In this document: positions 3,053-33,587 of the stretch, in pieces
How positions within the stretch are numbered: the first letter of the stretch is position 1
Layout: each line of letters starts with the position of its first letter
Source of the DNA: a virus
Length of the DNA stretch: 35,168 bases
Virus record (IMG/VR): IMGVR_UViG_3300047440_000444
Span: 1 to 35,168 of that record
Strand: one strand, 5' to 3'
Translations under genes and position numbers: made by a program
The notes under the pieces: model-generated
Databases searched by the model: none
What the model was told of the DNA's origin: nothing
The model's input: the letters and a program-made list of their open reading frames with translations, nothing else

Positions 3053-4921
3053 TTAATATATTTGATATCCAAAACTGTCCCAAAGAAGCTGTATGGAAGC
3101 ATAATTTGTATTCATTACATATGTTGTAGCGCCATCCAGGAGTACAGCTCCGCCAACAGTCGTTACAGTTACGTTTTTAGAGAATGCATTACCCGCAGAA
3201 TCTTTAATAATAAATGACCTATAAGTTGTCGGGGCATTTGGTAGCTGAATTGTTATAGCGATAGTTGAAGTATCAACCGTAATATAATAATCGTTTGCGC
3301 CCACTACAAAGGGAGTTGCGTTTGCCACTACATAACCAGTAATAACATGTGGGGCATTAGTTCCCAATTGGCCAGTAGCGCTATCAATAACAACATTTAA
3401 TTGGTTAGAAACAGTAACGCCAGCTATACCCGAAACAAAGGTAGATGTAGTTGAAGATCCTACAGAACCATCATTGCCAAGCCGCATTACGCGGTTTTCT
3501 CCTATAGTCCCAAATGTATTTCCGATAATAATATTATCAGATTCCGTCGTAGTATAATTAATGGCTACTTGATTACCTAACGCTATATTGTTTGATGGAG
3601 AAACAGCATTTGCTAAAGCCTCCCAGCCAACTACCGTATTGCCATTAGTAGTTTGGATGCGGAATCCAGCCCCCTGTCCCACTGCTACATTGTAAAATCC
3701 ACTTGTTAAGCCATTAAGGGCTTGCGAGCCAAATCCAGAGTTATATTGCCCGCTTGTAACATTTTGCAATGCTGCATATCCAACGCTCGCGTTAAAAGTT
3801 CCAGTAGTAAGCCCAGAACAAGCTGAGGGCCCGATACCAACATTAAAGGAACAAACGCCAGTATTCATAGTAAAATTACCTGAATTTTCACCAACAAAGG
3901 TATTAGATGAACCAAGTTGCGATATCCAGCGAGTCCCACCATATTGGAATACTCCAGCCGTTCCAGCAGCATTAGTAGCCGGCATATTAATATTATTATT
4001 TAAACATACTTCAATTGTATTTCCAGATGCAATTGTATTAATATTAGTTGCCACTCCTCCAACCGAAGTGCCCCCTAGAACATTCACAACGCCTGCGGAT
4101 GGTGCCGCGCTTCCTGAATCAGCATCAAATGTAGTCGATCCGCCACTAGGAACCGGTATGGTGCCCAATTGATTAGTGACGCTATCTATAACAACTGCTA
4201 ATTGGTTAGCAACTACAACCCCAGAAATTCCGGAAATAAAGGCCGTAGATAATTCTTGAGGCCCTACTCCAGTTGCTTCTCCAATTCTTAATGAATTAGA
4301 AACCCCATTTGAACCACGAGAATTTATATAAATATTACTAGTCTCGCCGCCAGAAATCGCATTATTACCCGCATCCTTTCCGACAGCTACATTATAAAAT
4401 CCAGTTGTTATTCCGTTCATCGCATTATCACCAAGGGCGACGTTATATACACCCGTTGTGAGATCTGAATGAGCCGATACGCCAACTGCTACATTGCGAG
4501 CTGCAGATGTTATAAGGGTTTGACAATTACCACCGACGGCAATATTAAAATTTCCTGTAACAGCATTAGCAGATTGAGCTAATGATCCTATAGCAATATT
4601 ATATTGTCCAGATGTTAAGTGATTAAGAGTATTATGTCCAATGCCAACATTATCAGAACCTGAAACTGTAGCATTTCCAGAACTTTTACCTATTAATGTA
4701 TTATTGTTTACATCAGTTACATTGAGCGTCAATGTAGAGGTTCCCGGATTTCCAGTAATTTCTACAGTAGCTCCAGAATTATTTGCAGCGACATTTGTTA
4801 TGACGTTTATATTGCCCGAAATATCTGCAGGAACCGTGCCGCCGAGGTCTCCAGTTAAAGACTGTACATATGTTCCAGGTGGAATTGGCGAGCCCGCTCC
4901 GAATTTTAATATTTGTGACAT
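3053..4921 (-). CDS. Large tail fibre, internally duplicated
   Basis: A 622-residue fibre made of two related halves. Each half has a run of about 14-residue head-like repeats (NVGIGxxTLxxLTSGQYNIAIG type; residues about 90-190 and 345-450), a closing NSLRIG or NRVMRLG motif, and a conserved FISGIxGVxVxNQLxVVIDS element leading to QLGT. Such beta-roll repeats usually form trimeric shafts. The C-terminal 100 residues (from VITGYVV) form a different beta-rich domain with no WTPTL tip. The ribosome site is AAGGAGAAAAA. It is the third and longest gene of the fibre cluster and is probably the main shaft or a second receptor-binding protein. Confidence 0.8.
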   Translation of the reverse strand: MSQILKFGAGSPIPPGTYVQSLTGDLGGTVPADISGNINVITNVAANNSGATVEITGNPGTSTLTLNVTDVNNNTLIGKSSGNATVSGSDNVGIGHNTLNHLTSGQYNIAIGSLAQSANAVTGNFNIAVGGNCQTLITSAARNVAVGVSAHSDLTTGVYNVALGDNAMNGITTGFYNVAVGKDAGNNAISGGETSNIYINSRGSNGVSNSLRIGEATGVGPQELSTAFISGISGVVVANQLAVVIDSVTNQLGTIPVPSGGSTTFDADSGSAAPSAGVVNVLGGTSVGGVATNINTIASGNTIEVCLNNNINMPATNAAGTAGVFQYGGTRWISQLGSSNTFVGENSGNFTMNTGVCSFNVGIGPSACSGLTTGTFNASVGYAALQNVTSGQYNSGFGSQALNGLTSGFYNVAVGQGAGFRIQTTNGNTVVGWEALANAVSPSNNIALGNQVAINYTTTESDNIIIGNTFGTIGENRVMRLGNDGSVGSSTTSTFVSGIAGVTVSNQLNVVIDSATGQLGTNAPHVITGYVVANATPFVVGANDYYITVDTSTIAITIQLPNAPTTYRSFIIKDSAGNAFSKNVTVTTVGGAVLLDGATTYVMNTNYASIQLLWDSFGYQIY

Positions 4922-21787: not shown

Positions 21788-22001
21788 AATTATTGATAGA
21801 TCTTTTAAGTAGCTCTCGAAATTCTTTAATTAAATCATCATCAACTCTATAATGAATTCTAAGTGCTCGCGCCATATTACCATCACTATCCCCCAACTTA
21901 ATAAGATATTCTGAATACAACATGCCTTTTAATTCAATCACATCAAATTTATATGGCCATGTTTCTTGAAGCATTTTCTCGATCTTACCTTTAGCATTCA
22001 T
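21786..22001 (-). CDS. 71-residue protein after terminase
   Basis: Starts MNAKGKIEKMLQETWPYKF and contains ELKGMLYSEYLIKLGDSDGNMARALRIHYR, mostly helical and charged. Its ATG overlaps the terminase stop (1 base shared), so it is translationally coupled. It may be a terminase partner or assembly factor; no family is known. Confidence 0.6.
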   Translation of the reverse strand: MNAKGKIEKMLQETWPYKFDVIELKGMLYSEYLIKLGDSDGNMARALRIHYRVDDDLIKEFRELLKRSINN

Positions 22002-25000
22002 TAGAAATGTGACCTTTTCTTATTAGTAAACGCAGGAAGTATATTCATATCCGGATGCGTTCTATTAAGATGTCTTTGTCTAATCGCATCATAATCTTCC
22101 GGCCTAAGATATGTTCCTGTAAGTGGAATAGCTTGGCACATATATCTAAAAGCATCGGCATAGTGATTCCATTTTGACTTAGCTGGCACCGGCAAATACA
22201 TCTGATTCTTTTCATCCCATTGCCGCTTATAGTTCTCTAGTGCATCAATAAGCGTCTGACATCTAACATCATTTATCCAGACTTTAGGAAACATCATAAG
22301 CGCATTCTCTATACTTTCAAGAACATGGACTTGTTTAAGTATTGTATGTTCAATACCAAGATCACGAGCCATAGTTGCGCGTGTTATAGCGTTATTCCCA
22401 AACTCACGAACGCGCATGTCATGGGGGAAGAAATGACCCCCATACCGATATCCTAGCTCTCTAGATTTATCATGTAAAATGCCAACATAATGGTCAATTC
22501 CCACACCAGAATTAGAATAGCAATCAATTATTCGGATAATTGCTGAATCACCTGCCTGTTGCCAAAATATTATTGTGGTTGGATCATTTACGCCAATATC
22601 GAATGCTGAGTATACGAGCAATCCTGGTTCATGTGGCACATGACATATTTGACCATTATTGCGAAGTCTATCTAATGAACTACCAAACCAAGATCCGGTA
22701 ACGCCACGCTCAAACGAGACTTCATACTCCTGCTCATAAAGACATGGATCCATCTGGGCCCTTTCATCTTCAAGGATATCATATGGTATATGTTGTATCT
22801 CTGATGTTTTTTGCTTAAGTACAAACCAGTCTGGTAGAGCCTCTGCCATCTTTGTTAGATGCCAAAGATGATTCTTCCCACGTGGCGTATTATGAGATAT
22901 GAATCCATTTGAAAAGAATGAATGAGTTTCTGGGATCACAAAGTCATAAACATCATTGCGCGATTCTTCAATTGAGGCTATCGGTGAGTAATAGAACTTT
23001 TCCTTAAGTAGATCATATAAATACCAATTTTGCGCCTTTGAATTAATCAATTCTAGATCAGACCTTGTCATCATAGATTTAGATTGTATGTGATCAGGAA
23101 TATTATATCCAACTAAAAGATCGTGGTTAACATCATAAAGGTTCTGTGATGCTCTTCTATATTTCATCGGAATAGTTTCTTGCTCTGTCATCTTACTCGC
23201 AATCGAATATTTTATGAGCTTATAAAATAACCATGCAAAGTGATCTTTAATTGTAAGTTGAGGTAGTTTTCCATGGGTATCTACATAGGAAATAATTCCT
23301 AAATTAAGAAGTATAATCTGTAGATCTTGCAAAAAGCTAAGGTGTTTATAGTTAAGAAAGATATTTCCCCATGTATTCAGATTAAGGCGATATGTTTCTG
23401 AATACACATCGAATATGCCGCGCAAAAAGCTAATCATTTGATTACGATTAAACTTAAACACTTCATCCGGCATTCTAGGATTATCTAAAAACTCTAATCC
23501 TAGATCTTTCATAGTTTTACGAAGAATCTTATTAAACTTTCCCTTATAGCGGCAGTTTAACTCAAGAAACATATTGTCTGTATGTATTTGTGTTTCGCGA
23601 GTTGCCTCAATACTGCCATCAAGGATTAACGTTCCTATAAAATAAAGACAATCAACATCAATTGAATCAGCTTGTTTCTCGGGCCATATATCCTGACCAT
23701 ATTGGATAGGTAATCGTGAGCCAATTACTAACTTATCTGCTGGTATCCACTGCTTTCCATCCCAAAGTTGATGTATAGGCGTGCATTCAATTTGATAACC
23801 AGATTCAAGCGTAATCTTTAATGTATCTTGCTTGCGCCCATAGTAAAATTGTTCTGCCGCGTGAAATCCTTCAAGACCAAATATATTCTCTTTAAGATCT
23901 GTATATTCTTTACGCGAGCTAGATACTTTTGATATCTTACGCATTCCATTAGATGTGATAACTACGGTATCAGGTGCAACACATGATACTATAAGGCACC
24001 ATCCACCATTAGCGGCTATAATGGGGCGTATCATATTAAATACTTCAGCAGATTCCATAATCGCGAATTCTGATAGAATTAAGGCATAGGCGTTTGTACC
24101 TATAAGAGAAGTATTAAAGTTCTTTACGCCAATACACTGTAAGATGCTTCCGTTAATGAACGTGATCTTCATCTCAGATCGATTTACATTCTTTATAAGC
24201 TGTTTGGGAATATAATCTAACCATTGTATACCATCATTAGATATGGCATCAAAAATTACCTTGCGAATATGGGTGTATGTCGGCAAGCAATAGTATACCA
24301 AACAGACTTTTTTTATACATTGCCGTATGGCTAAATTCCAGGCTGAAATATCTTTTCCAGAGTTATGTACAACATATCCATTGGCAACAAAATTACCATA
24401 TGTCGTTGTTTCAATATCATATAGCTCTTCATCAGAATGATCTGCTATTGTGAAACTAGATCTAAAGCATCCGTGAGTTATTTTGTTAGTTTTTGTAGAG
24501 TCACTTATTTTACTTAGCGCTTCATCTTGTTTCTCTGTCTTACCATATATTTTTACAGCTGTTAGAATTCTTCTTACACTATCAGATTTTGATATCTTTA
24601 TCTTCCAGTTACTTTGTTTTTCATAGTATGGAACTTGTGGCACTATCCCAATTTTACGCAGCAGCCAATACATATCCCAAGCCATATTATAACTAACACC
24701 ACAACTCAATGTTATCTCTATTGCCGGAGGTATACTATGCATAGTATCACTTGCTATAAAGCCATTCTTATGACAATAGATATTACCATCTCCAGATATA
24801 TATGCAGTAATAAACCTTAATATTGATTCTTCATTATAATCCCATATAAATGGGAACAATCTTCTATCACTTTTGGAAACATCTAATCCATATTTTCTAA
24901 AAAATTCTTTAATCTTATTTTTAGTTTTACCGCCACCATTTGTACCATTAGAAAATCCTAAATCAAATCCTTTCCCCTTTGGCCTCCATATAGATTGATA

Positions 25001-25591
25001 TCCAAATAATTTGAAAACAAGTTCTTCAACTCGCTTTAAGATATCTAAGTTTATATTTGTGAATTTTGGTTGTTGATATGCGGCCACATATCCATCGGAT
25101 AACATATAGCCCAAGAATTCTGCCATCTCCGGATCTGACAATGTCCCTTGATTTAATCCGGCATAATTAAGCAAGAAGTTCTTATTTGAAGTTCGGCCTA
25201 TTGGCTTCCATGTATAGTTATTATACCCAGAATATACAGTTGCGAACATATGATCTTTTGACGTGATAACTGGAAGAAACCCACTACTTCCTTTAATTAA
25301 TTTCGTCTTCTTTATTCCAGTAGACCATTTATTCTTTACTATATCTTTAACAAAGCCCTGACCGTCCCATGAAACAATTTCGTCGCCGATTTGTATATCT
25401 TTTAATAATTTAAACGACCCATTTAAAAGAGTAATATGCGTATTTCCAGAAAGACATCTTCTTGGGGCTATATATATTACTTTACGATATCCCTTATTCT
25501 CAATTGCATCCCATATTGGGAGCTGATACCATCTTGGAGAAAATTTATCTAAAGTTAGTCTATGCTCTGCATTAAGTGTAATTTGCTCCAT
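22001..25591 (-). CDS. terL: Large terminase (packaging ATPase-nuclease) with two inteins
   Basis: The 1196-residue frame encodes a terminase of 466 residues after removal of two 365-residue inteins (46-410 and 537-901). The ATPase half has the Walker A loop APRR|SGKD (42-45 joined to 411-414), a Walker B-like ALILSEFA (503-510; E508) and the coupling motif S|TPRG (536 joined to 902-905). The nuclease half has D998 (FDIG), D1058 (PHD) and D1146 (YADAFRY), the RNase H-like acidic triad. It cuts and pumps DNA through the portal. The start has AAGGAGG. Excision of both inteins is required, since each splits a catalytic loop. Confidence 0.95.
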   Translation of the reverse strand: MEQITLNAEHRLTLDKFSPRWYQLPIWDAIENKGYRKVIYIAPRRCLSGNTHITLLNGSFKLLKDIQIGDEIVSWDGQGFVKDIVKNKWSTGIKKTKLIKGSSGFLPVITSKDHMFATVYSGYNNYTWKPIGRTSNKNFLLNYAGLNQGTLSDPEMAEFLGYMLSDGYVAAYQQPKFTNINLDILKRVEELVFKLFGYQSIWRPKGKGFDLGFSNGTNGGGKTKNKIKEFFRKYGLDVSKSDRRLFPFIWDYNEESILRFITAYISGDGNIYCHKNGFIASDTMHSIPPAIEITLSCGVSYNMAWDMYWLLRKIGIVPQVPYYEKQSNWKIKISKSDSVRRILTAVKIYGKTEKQDEALSKISDSTKTNKITHGCFRSSFTIADHSDEELYDIETTTYGNFVANGYVVHNSGKDISAWNLAIRQCIKKVCLVYYCLPTYTHIRKVIFDAISNDGIQWLDYIPKQLIKNVNRSEMKITFINGSILQCIGVKNFNTSLIGTNAYALILSEFAIMESAEVFNMIRPIIAANGGWCLIVSCVAPDTVVITSNGMRKISKVSSSRKEYTDLKENIFGLEGFHAAEQFYYGRKQDTLKITLESGYQIECTPIHQLWDGKQWIPADKLVIGSRLPIQYGQDIWPEKQADSIDVDCLYFIGTLILDGSIEATRETQIHTDNMFLELNCRYKGKFNKILRKTMKDLGLEFLDNPRMPDEVFKFNRNQMISFLRGIFDVYSETYRLNLNTWGNIFLNYKHLSFLQDLQIILLNLGIISYVDTHGKLPQLTIKDHFAWLFYKLIKYSIASKMTEQETIPMKYRRASQNLYDVNHDLLVGYNIPDHIQSKSMMTRSDLELINSKAQNWYLYDLLKEKFYYSPIASIEESRNDVYDFVIPETHSFFSNGFISHNTPRGKNHLWHLTKMAEALPDWFVLKQKTSEIQHIPYDILEDERAQMDPCLYEQEYEVSFERGVTGSWFGSSLDRLRNNGQICHVPHEPGLLVYSAFDIGVNDPTTIIFWQQAGDSAIIRIIDCYSNSGVGIDHYVGILHDKSRELGYRYGGHFFPHDMRVREFGNNAITRATMARDLGIEHTILKQVHVLESIENALMMFPKVWINDVRCQTLIDALENYKRQWDEKNQMYLPVPAKSKWNHYADAFRYMCQAIPLTGTYLRPEDYDAIRQRHLNRTHPDMNILPAFTNKKRSHF
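22889..23983 (-). other. Intein 2 in the terminase TPRG motif, endonuclease degenerate
   Basis: Residues 537-901. Starts with Cys537 (CVAPDTVVITSNGM), block B ECTPIH (602-607), block F VYDFVIPETHSFFSNG and block G FISHN with Thr902 as +1. The first LAGLIDADG motif is FIGTLILDG (D658 present). The second, LRGIFDVYS (723-731), has Tyr in place of the catalytic Asp and Ser in place of the last Gly, so the endonuclease is probably inactive while the splicing residues remain. Confidence 0.92.
24362..25456 (-). other. Intein 1 in the terminase Walker A loop, with LAGLIDADG endonuclease
   Basis: Residues 46-410. Starts with Cys46 (CLSGNTHITLLNGSFKLLKD), has block B TSKDH (110-114), block F ELYDIETTTYGNFVANG and block G VVHN followed by Ser411 as the +1 residue. 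Two LAGLIDADG motifs are intact at the catalytic position: FLGYMLSDG (D166) and ITAYISGDG (D268). Splicing by standard Cys/Asn/Ser chemistry and an active homing endonuclease are both expected. Confidence 0.93.
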
Positions 25592-25673: not shown

Positions 25674-26063
25674 TTATTCAGATTTCTTTGGACGTCCTCT
25701 TTTTTTTACAGCTCCCGCTTTTATATCTTTACGTATATTGTTACTTATATATCCACGCAATACATGCTTTATCATATCGACAAGTTGCTGATTATAATCA
25801 TCTTGAGATGGAGTATTAATAAGATATTCACCAATACCATTTACTTTCTCATGAATTCTCTTTAGCTCCTGAGAAAGGTTTGATATATCGGGATATAGAT
25901 TTTCTATTTTTTTCAACTGCTCTTTTATGATATGAATTTCATTATGTAGAATATTATATTCACAACAGCAATCTTGATTACAATCTTCATCAAGATCTTG
26001 TTCAAACGATTTATAAAATAGCGTCGTCTTTATTCTTCTTGCTAGTCTTTTTAGAAACTTCAT
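25674..26063 (-). CDS. 129-residue coiled coil with C-terminal AT-hook-like motif
   Basis: Residues 1-20 are basic, 24-35 acidic with four close cysteines (CNQDCCCEY), and about 36-90 a coiled coil (HNEIHIIKEQLKKIENL, LSQELKRIHEKV). It ends KKRGRPKKSE, which resembles an AT-hook. A DNA-binding coiled coil right upstream of the large terminase could be a terminase small subunit or a DNA-organising protein; a better small-subunit candidate exists at 28525-29157. The spacing to terminase is 82 bases. Confidence 0.6.
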   Translation of the reverse strand: MKFLKRLARRIKTTLFYKSFEQDLDEDCNQDCCCEYNILHNEIHIIKEQLKKIENLYPDISNLSQELKRIHEKVNGIGEYLINTPSQDDYNQQLVDMIKHVLRGYISNNIRKDIKAGAVKKRGRPKKSE

Positions 26064-31152: not shown

Positions 31153-31473
31153 ATGCTTAAGCAAATACAAGAGTTACATGATCAATTTGTTAAAATCTTT
31201 ACCGAATACCAGATTCTTATGGATGAATACTATAGTTTCAATGGCCAAAAGATTACTGAAGAAAATCTTTCTGAAGTTAACCAAATTCTAAAAAATATCG
31301 GGGCTAAATTCACCGAATGTTATCCAGTCCTACACTATATCAACGAACAACATAATTTTGCATCTAAGGCCATTTTTGATTACCATTCATTCATTGAAAA
31401 TCTAAAGAAGAATGGCGCTGAAATTATTAACGATCCTAATGAAGCTAAAAAAGATGAATTATCACAGCAATGA
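31153..31473 (+). CDS. 106-residue helical protein before the Erf-like gene
   Basis: MLKQIQELHDQFVKIFTEYQ and later segments are helical throughout, with an acidic/basic tail ending KKDELSQQ. The ribosome site GGGAG is clear and it overlaps the next gene by 20 bases. It may be an accessory to recombination; no family is recognised. Confidence 0.65.
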   Translation: MLKQIQELHDQFVKIFTEYQILMDEYYSFNGQKITEENLSEVNQILKNIGAKFTECYPVLHYINEQHNFASKAIFDYHSFIENLKKNGAEIINDPNEAKKDELSQQ

Positions 31474-32113
31474 AATCGAGTCAGTATTAGCTGCTCTCTC
31501 TAAAGCCCAAGGATCCTATAAGAGATTAAGCGCTCAAGGAAGAACCGCCTCAGGCAAAGCCTATGCCACTCTTACTGATATTCTTGAATCTATAAAAGAA
31601 TCTTTTGAAGCCAATGGATTGTCATTCTTTCAGTATACTGAACTTCAGGGCGAATCTGGCGCTAAGCTCCTCCATTCTCGTATCGGCCATTCTTCTGGCC
31701 AATTCCTATCATCTATCGATAGAGTATTGCCAGCCCAGACCCTTAAAGAGAGTAACACTAATCTCGAGATAGAAAAAAGAACTCAGGCTATGATGATCCT
31801 GGGAATCGCTCCGCTTGAGTTCGATCCATATTCATTTGATGATGATGGCGAACTAGAAGCCGAAAGGGCATTCGTAAATCGCCTTGTAAAAGACGAACCA
31901 GCCAAGCTTAATGAAAGATACCAGACTATCTCTACTAATGATTATAATCGATTATTGATCGAAATTGGAAATGAGACTGAGATATTGAGAAAGATTCTTA
32001 AAGAGTATCATATTGAATCTCTTTCTGATCTTCCCGCCGATAGATATCATCATACCATTAGCGAAATTCGTCGAATAAAGAAGATTGTAGAAGATAAGTT
32101 AACTCGGGGTTGA
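31454..32113 (+). CDS. erf: Erf-family single-strand annealing protein
   Basis: 219 residues from ATG 31454 (31412 is a possible longer start). The N-terminus IESVLAALSKAQGSYKRLS, then GKAYATLTDILESIKESFEA, NGLSFFQY and LLHSRIGHSSGQFLSS follow the Erf-domain pattern (helix, strands, conserved YATL element). The C-terminal 80 residues are charged helices. Erf proteins anneal single strands and circularise phage DNA. It is the main gene of the plus-strand operon. A Bet-type protein on the other strand would overlap in role. Confidence 0.75.
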   Translation: MNYHSNEIESVLAALSKAQGSYKRLSAQGRTASGKAYATLTDILESIKESFEANGLSFFQYTELQGESGAKLLHSRIGHSSGQFLSSIDRVLPAQTLKESNTNLEIEKRTQAMMILGIAPLEFDPYSFDDDGELEAERAFVNRLVKDEPAKLNERYQTISTNDYNRLLIEIGNETEILRKILKEYHIESLSDLPADRYHHTISEIRRIKKIVEDKLTRG

Positions 32114-32429: not shown

Positions 32430-32522
32430 TTATTTATCTTCTGGATTTCTCTCAATTAATTCCCCCGCAGCCCATACAATAATAAACATCAATAGCGTGA
32501 ATATTTGCCAGCTTTCTAACAT
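32430..32522 (-). CDS. 30-residue single-pass membrane protein after the Bet-like gene
   Basis: The ATG overlaps the Bet-like stop (TAATG). MLESWQIFTLLMFIIVWAAG is one hydrophobic helix, followed by a charged end (ELIERNPEDK). Coupled translation. Possible superinfection or membrane-associated role; unknown. Confidence 0.55.
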   Translation of the reverse strand: MLESWQIFTLLMFIIVWAAGELIERNPEDK

Positions 32523-33241
32523 TACATGCTTCTTATATATTCTGTTATTATAATCACTTCATCATCAGTTAATTCTTTACTTGAAGTTTTACCCGTTAGA
32601 TTCCCCATGATACCCAGGAGTTCTTCAACTTTAATACCCTTATCCGCAATCATATCCTTAAGATCTTTGCGCGGGTTATCACTTTTAGACTCAAGCACAT
32701 TCTCATGGATATCTTCAGAAAGTATTTCTTCTTTAGTTGTTATTCCAGATATACTAAATGCTCGCTTAAGGGCCATAGACTCAGCAACCTTAGTTATCAT
32801 AGCATTGGGATACTTCTTCCATATATCACCTTGGGTCTTATAGTAGTCATCATAACTGACAAATATACTTGTAGACTTAGACCAGTCCTTTCGGAACACA
32901 TTGCAGAATGCTCCACGGAGCTTCGTCTTGTCAAACGAGAGATGCCCATCTCCGTATTCTATTAAAAATGATCCATCTGCGCGCTTAGTTAGCTTATCAC
33001 CTAAATATACTGCATCTGACTCCAATCCATCAAACTGCCCATGATCGTGAGCTATCTTGAGGTATCCATCTCTTCCTGTAAGTATCGATGCCGGCCTGCC
33101 GTCAAACTTAATGAAATAGATCTCTTTCTTTATAGGATCGAGATTGTATTGCTGCGCTAGATACAGAAAGGTATTGAATTCTTCTTCACTTGCATTCTTG
33201 CATATCGTTCGTCGTATTAGATTCTGTATTTGCGCGTTCAT
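32522..33241 (-). CDS. bet: Bet/RecT-family single-strand annealing protein
   Basis: 239 residues. ATG 33241 has GGAG eight bases upstream (a TTG two codons earlier is not needed). The pattern FNTFLYLAQQYNLDPIKKEIYFIKFDGRP, the segment TGRDGYLKIAHDHGQFDG, then TKVAESMALKRAFSISGIT matches lambda Bet/RecT annealing proteins over the whole core. The C-terminus from about 180 is variable. No exonuclease (exo) neighbour was recognised, so it may work with a host nuclease or alone. Part of the minus-strand early operon. Confidence 0.85.
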   Translation of the reverse strand: MNAQIQNLIRRTICKNASEEEFNTFLYLAQQYNLDPIKKEIYFIKFDGRPASILTGRDGYLKIAHDHGQFDGLESDAVYLGDKLTKRADGSFLIEYGDGHLSFDKTKLRGAFCNVFRKDWSKSTSIFVSYDDYYKTQGDIWKKYPNAMITKVAESMALKRAFSISGITTKEEILSEDIHENVLESKSDNPRKDLKDMIADKGIKVEELLGIMGNLTGKTSSKELTDDEVIIITEYIRSM

Positions 33242-33587
33242 TATCAAACTCCATTAAACCTGTTACTCTTTTCCATATTATAAATTCGTGACGCATAGAT
33301 CTATCATGCTTCCAGCAATCAGTAGTAAACTTATCTGCGCCTTTATATCCTATCTTCGGAATCTTCGTATAAAACTTTAGATCTGGAAAGCGAAGAAGGC
33401 ACTTCTTAATATTCGGAATTCCATGAATGATAATACTTAGATGATCCGTTTCAATGCTCTCAAATACTCTTATTACTGTGCTAATTTGTCGATATTCATG
33501 AGCGGCATCAATTTTAGCAGCCCTAACTAGATTGATCATTACTTCCATAATCTTATTGTATGCGATTTGTAGTTCAGGAATCTTCAT
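33186..33587 (-). CDS. 133-residue unknown protein before the Bet-like gene
   Basis: Starts MKIPELQIAYNKIMEVMINL, helical N-terminus, then a mixed part with HLSIIIHGIPNIKKCLLRF and KGADKFTTDCWKHDRSMRHEF. Its C-terminus overlaps the Bet-like gene by 56 bases and is low-complexity. It starts with TAATG overlapped with the stop of the first gene. Early, function unknown. Confidence 0.6.
   Translation of the reverse strand: MKIPELQIAYNKIMEVMINLVRAAKIDAAHEYRQISTVIRVFESIETDHLSIIIHGIPNIKKCLLRFPDLKFYTKIPKIGYKGADKFTTDCWKHDRSMRHEFIIWKRVTGLMEFDNERANTESNTTNDMQECK

Follow-up and report, generated by a model that had tools for sequence, protein, structure and literature searches.

A phage large terminase gene with two predicted inteins in its ATPase motifs, and the intein insertion sites of its relatives

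Two inserts of equal length split the large terminase (TerL) gene of a tailed phage, each within a motif of its ATPase, and the question raised by this locus is whether they are inteins and, if so, whether they are kept for the benefit of the phage or for their own. The gene lies in a metagenomic contig (IMG/VR record IMGVR_UViG_3300047440_000444), of which positions 1 to 35,168 are called the window here, and its minus-strand frame runs from 25591 to 22001 through 1196 codons with zero internal stops. The best explanation of the whole is that two mobile class 1 inteins, unrelated to each other, have entered this TerL and would excise themselves to leave a 466-aa motor; we put the probability of this reading at roughly 0.9. 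The features of the gene are as follows.

22001..25591, minus strand: TerL precursor gene with two inteins, 1196 aa
25457..25591, minus strand: N-extein, aa 1-45, first half of Walker A, ending in ...IAPRR
24362..25456, minus strand: intein 1, aa 46-410, 365 aa; Cys1 ... VVHN, +1 Ser; Hint fold and LAGLIDADG endonuclease
25094..25096, minus strand: first LAGLIDADG Asp of intein 1 (block C, LSDG), invariant in the family alignment
24788..24790, minus strand: second LAGLIDADG Asp of intein 1 (block E, SGDG), invariant in the family alignment
23984..24361, minus strand: middle extein, aa 411-536, SGKD ... CLIVS; holds the remainder of Walker A, the acidic motif LILSE and the start of the coupling motif
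22889..23983, minus strand: intein 2, aa 537-901, 365 aa; Cys1, TPIH, ISHN, +1 Thr; degenerate LAGLIDADG endonuclease
23402..23404, minus strand: Tyr194 of intein 2, in place of the second catalytic Asp (FDVYS vs FDGDG)
22001..22888, minus strand: C-extein and stop codon; TPRG and RNase H-like nuclease domain (FDIGV, HYADAFRY), with Terminase_3C and PHROG matches

Excising aa 46-410 and aa 537-901 from the precursor leaves exteins of 45, 126 and 295 aa, which sum to the 466-residue terminase foreseen in the original prediction. Against TerL profiles, the comparison proposed there, the spliced protein matches the PHROG 2 terminase over residues 15-425 (5.5e-29), and a TerL family profile detects the P74-26 TerL ATPase (4zni, 1.1e-10) and also T4 gp17 in the PDB. 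Pfam terminase matches are under the cut-off, and the Pfam profile PF03354 gave no match when searched against the window's own record. With the inserts removed, the protein has both the ATPase motifs and the RNase H-like nuclease of a tailed-phage large terminase, and intein-free homologues, such as L031 (a 469-codon frame, 49% identity) and L002, cross both sites unbroken. Upstream of TerL no small terminase was recognized; a 129-aa ORF at 25674-26063 (minus strand) has weak coiled-coil-type matches and a KKRGRPKK tail, and does not resemble the ORFs of 178-180 aa that precede TerL in L002 and L006. A search for terminal repeats in the window found none.

The inserts themselves are recognized by intein profiles. 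The whole 1196-aa protein matches Pfam Intein_splicing (3e-17) and LAGLIDADG_3 (2.8e-9) and, in two stretches, NCBIfam intein_Nterm (1e-11) and intein_Cterm (1.7e-8); taken alone, intein 2 matches Intein_splicing at 1e-10 and intein 1 at 1e-6, the latter under the curated cut-off. Intein 1 is inserted at PRR|SGKD, inside Walker A, and intein 2 at VS|TPRG, in the ATPase coupling motif. Class 1 motifs are conserved across each family alignment: Cys1, SKDH, HN and +1 Ser in intein 1, and Cys1, TPIH, HN and +1 Thr in intein 2. The Cys1, HN and +1 Ser or Thr predicted for both are thus all present, whereas the predicted TxxH is found in intein 2 only; block B of intein 1 is ITSKDH, an SxxH form, with Ser at this position in most family members. 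The AlphaFold2 model of intein 1 (pLDDT 91.8) aligns over its whole length with the TliVMA intein including its endonuclease (7qsu, Z 30.1, 318 residues aligned, 3.6 A) and with a mini-intein over 131 residues (Z about 22). The weaker model of intein 2 (pLDDT about 73, lowest near both ends) also aligns with TliVMA (7qss, Z 22.2, 336 residues aligned, 4.1 A). When the DNA of intein 1 was shuffled, the frame stayed open in none of 2000 shuffles. No sign of a foreign base composition was seen in either intein (GC3 of 0.25 and 0.28, vs 0.22-0.35 in the exteins). Profiles, folds and intein-free homologues agree on two inteins with the borders and motif positions originally assigned, and on these sequences and models we regard the two-intein terminase as confirmed; the splicing of both inteins is predicted from their residues.

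The two endonucleases differ in their state. In intein 1 a catalytic Asp stands at the end of each of the two LAGLIDADG helices, and the endonuclease is conserved equally with the splicing part among relatives (54% and 48% identity, respectively). This endonuclease looks active, because both LAGLIDADG Asps are kept, the intein is scattered on the terminase tree and its similarity is unrelated to that of the exteins. In intein 2 block C (LILDG) is kept, but block E reads FDVYS and has lost the Asp of intact relatives (FDGDG or FDSDG), so that one of the two catalytic Asps of a LAGLIDADG enzyme is missing, and the intein is about 40 aa shorter than its relatives. Its splicing part is 62-66% identical to theirs and its endonuclease only 21-29%; with intact relatives as the reference the values are 62-64% and about 28%, whereas intact inteins at this site share 64-75% and 50-62%, respectively, among themselves. 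Judged by these comparisons, intein 2 is one in which the endonuclease has diverged and the splicing apparatus is intact; it is of LAGLIDADG descent but probably cannot cut.

Relatives with and without inteins, a comparison that had been suggested at the outset, carry the argument further: carriers have their inteins at the same sites, from which intein-free homologues lack them precisely. With intein 1 as the query, a first search brought up 18 viral contigs in which a full-length homologue (45-59% identity) lies at an identical position of a homologous terminase. A deeper search yielded 42 loci (a count that takes in the window and some near-duplicates), always with the intein in this position, site 1; 12 of the 42 have mini-inteins of 128-162 aa, a few have intermediate or enlarged forms (279, 295 and 552 aa), and L001 is an additional, truncated carrier. 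The 552-aa form, at L139:3501-5132, has a degenerate endonuclease and an extra stretch of about 150 aa unlike the family. A tblastn search with intein 1 of 50,697 annotated phage records gave no match. In a plain search intein 2 matched no viral contig, but an alignment of intein 2 with L105 revealed homologues in 18 other loci (L111-L117, then eleven more), all at S|TP (site 2), most of which retain HADG and FDGDG. Many terminase relatives are without one or both inteins, and a genome scan returned distant, intein-free terminases only.

Three further sites are occupied in the same terminase family: the SDN site, before SLxGTN (L006, L063, L064, L067, L142 and L155), a site after QEY (L021 and L133), and the nuclease motif (L004, L032, L054, L078, L133, L136, L156 and L172). 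Within its nuclease-site intein, L004 has an out-of-frame HNH_3 endonuclease ORF (3958-4722, plus strand; Pfam 9.5e-18), comparable to the hidden HNH element of PMC11855218; the intein frame is open despite this inner ORF, which is absent from the homologue in L032. Inteins at sites 1 and 2 had been thought an uncommon pair, a view that the relatives do not bear out: the same pair occurs in L139, L143, L147 and L156, other loci combine a site 1 or site 2 intein with further sites, and two terminases have three inteins each, namely L133:3363-7640 (site 1, QEY and nuclease) and L156:3369-6914 (mini-intein at site 1, site 2 and nuclease). We found no three-intein TerL in the literature, our coverage of which was incomplete.

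The distribution of these inteins points to mobility. In a tree of 78 spliced terminases (quick maximum-likelihood search, +1 column removed), the presence of the site 1 intein changed at least 12 times, eight of them on strongly supported branches. Pairwise identities of inteins and exteins are uncorrelated (19 sequences, Mantel r 0.07, p 0.35), although saturation at about 47% identity can also weaken such a correlation. The DNAs of L142 and L143 are 97.6-99% identical, yet these loci differ in two inteins, and in L064 the DNA background is 96% identical but the site 2 intein is absent. Patchy presence, intein-extein mismatch and turnover between near-identical phages are the signature predicted by selfish homing and intein loss, and not by a fixed regulatory device.

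Class 1 splicing requires Cys, Ser or Thr as the +1 residue. At site 2 the +1 Thr is conserved in nearly all relatives. At site 1 all 19 carriers in the tree have Ser, whereas the 59 empty alleles have Ala (45), Ser (8) or other residues (6), and in phylogenetically independent pairs Ser accompanies the intein in 7-8 of eight (about 7.5; p about 0.008). Most empty alleles, having Ala, could not support splicing. Either the intein imports Ser by co-conversion, or it survives only in Ser alleles; the eight empty alleles with Ser indicate that some lineages could have borne Ser before invasion. Haloarchaeal MCM-d shows the same pattern, with Pro and Ser, and is a precedent for +1 co-conversion (PMC10643990). 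Beyond the +1 residue, the flanks of site 1 are not clearly more alike among carriers than among empty alleles, so a longer co-conversion tract is unsupported.

Could the inteins instead be kept because they regulate DNA packaging after translation, as the timing or stress switch of the original prediction? Their placement in motifs that an essential ATPase needs for catalysis is compatible with such a role, conditional splicing is documented elsewhere (for example, in one of the two DnaB inteins of M. smegmatis; PMC6195587), and the splicing part of intein 2 has stayed conserved after the decay of its endonuclease. This conservation is expected without a switch, because a failure of splicing would kill the phage, and patchy presence with intein-free close relatives, like the turnover between near-identical phages, argues against a general benefit. 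The comparative evidence does not favor a switch, which we consider improbable. A pseudogene or dead allele with failed splicing, or else a misassembly, might be suspected from the decayed endonuclease of intein 2 and the metagenomic origin of the contig, but is very improbable, given that no splicing residue or extein motif has been lost, no stop interrupts the 1196 codons and independent contigs (L139, L143, L147 and L156) have the same architecture. Ordinary accessory domains that remain in the mature terminase, which the continuous frame would by itself permit, can practically be discounted in view of the complete splicing motifs, the intein fold, the insertion within Walker A, the precise absence in relatives and the intein families known at the same coupling-motif site (PMC5050341, PMC7156551).

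The invasion of TerL by two mobile inteins is thus the reading that we develop here, and from the borders, motifs, fold, same-site recurrence and endonuclease decay seen in the sequences we infer the following course. Both inteins would be translated in frame and then excise themselves by an N-S acyl shift at Cys1, transesterification to the +1 Ser or Thr, and Asn cyclization, joining the 45-, 126- and 295-aa exteins. With Walker A and the coupling motif both divided, unspliced TerL is probably inactive, and since both catalytic motifs are interrupted it is reasonable to suppose that active TerL, and with it packaging, needs both splicing events. Such indispensable motifs make good homing targets, in which imprecise loss would be lethal. 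Intein 1 would spread between phages at its exact site through cleavage by its own LAGLIDADG endonuclease, and may carry the +1 Ser along by co-conversion. Intein 2, because its endonuclease is degenerate, would be passed on vertically or be co-carried as a passenger when the neighboring site, 378 bp away, is converted. The window also encodes Erf-like (31412-32113, plus strand) and Bet/RecT-like (32522-33247, minus strand) single-strand annealing proteins, and these two could aid the recombination step of homing.

Pairs of neighboring inteins, counted as site 1 plus either site 2 or the SDN site and scored for intactness at the two catalytic positions, show exactly one apparently intact endonuclease in six of six independent cases. 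In the window intein 1 is intact and intein 2 decayed; the reverse holds for L139, L143, L147 and L156, and in L142 and L155 a decayed or mini site 1 intein stands beside an intact SDN-site intein (the site 1 allele of L142 is common to L143). Among single inteins, 19 of 29 at site 1, nine of ten at site 2 and four of four at the SDN site are intact; in an exploratory, post hoc test on this small sample, a permutation against the singles gave P 0.008 for the lack of a double-intact pair, and a stricter comparison at site 1 alone gave p 0.06 (Fisher). By eye, L021, in which site 1 is combined with the more distant QEY site, has two intact endonucleases. The pattern fits, by analogy, the interference between neighboring inteins reported in PMC10643990, and we tentatively suggest that in this uncultivated phage group neighboring terminase inteins might compete, one active endonuclease being kept and the disabled partner traveling as a co-conversion passenger. 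The same picture would arise if inteins had entered, in sequence, old alleles that had already decayed.

By itself, the window's gene is another intein-bearing terminase of a kind already published; together with its relatives, it becomes a natural experiment in the population biology of inteins. One essential gene has five insertion sites, with as many as three inteins in one protein, and a single site displays all stages of the homing cycle, namely empty with Ala, full-length, decaying and mini-intein, to which picture the turnover between near-identical phages adds. Judged from these sequences and models, the gene is best read as one under serial attack by selfish inteins, and the family makes testable in phages both the overwriting of a non-splicing +1 residue by co-conversion and the mutual exclusion of neighboring active endonucleases.

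Two-intein TerLs are already on record, which further weakens the claim of rarity. The TerL of Microcystis phage Mic1 (MN013189, PMC7156551) likewise has two inteins; the large one shares its coupling-motif site (TG|TPKG) with intein 2, to which it is homologous along the full length at about 26% identity, whereas the second is a mini-intein in the nuclease domain and not in Walker A. The authors of that study proposed a biosensor role, the same idea as a switch. Two inteins also split the TerL of the crAss-like Delta-group phage OBYQ01000140 (PMC7886860), which by its description has Hint-Hop type inteins with recoded stops. Mycobacteriophage TerL inteins (TerL1-a to -e and TerL6-f; PMC5050341) cluster, as in the window, in the ATPase domain, with a and b in the P-loop and f in the C-motif. 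TerL1-a separates Lys from Thr, and intein 1 of the window sits three residues further upstream (RR|SGK); intein 2 is a C-motif insertion of the TerL6-f type, the identity of the TerL6-f site being taken from PMC5050341 and that of the Mic1 site from sequence. The best structural match for both inteins is the Hint and LAGLIDADG-endonuclease intein TliVMA (7QSS, 7QSU), at about 16-20% identity and in a different host protein, an archaeal V-ATPase. Haloarchaeal MCM-a and MCM-d (PMC10643990) are, like the inteins of the window, two neighbors in one ATPase gene, and filled sites have Ser in both systems, whereas the splicing-blocking +1 residue of empty sites is Pro in MCM and Ala at TerL site 1. 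Both endonucleases of the MCM pair are active, whereas one in the window looks dead.
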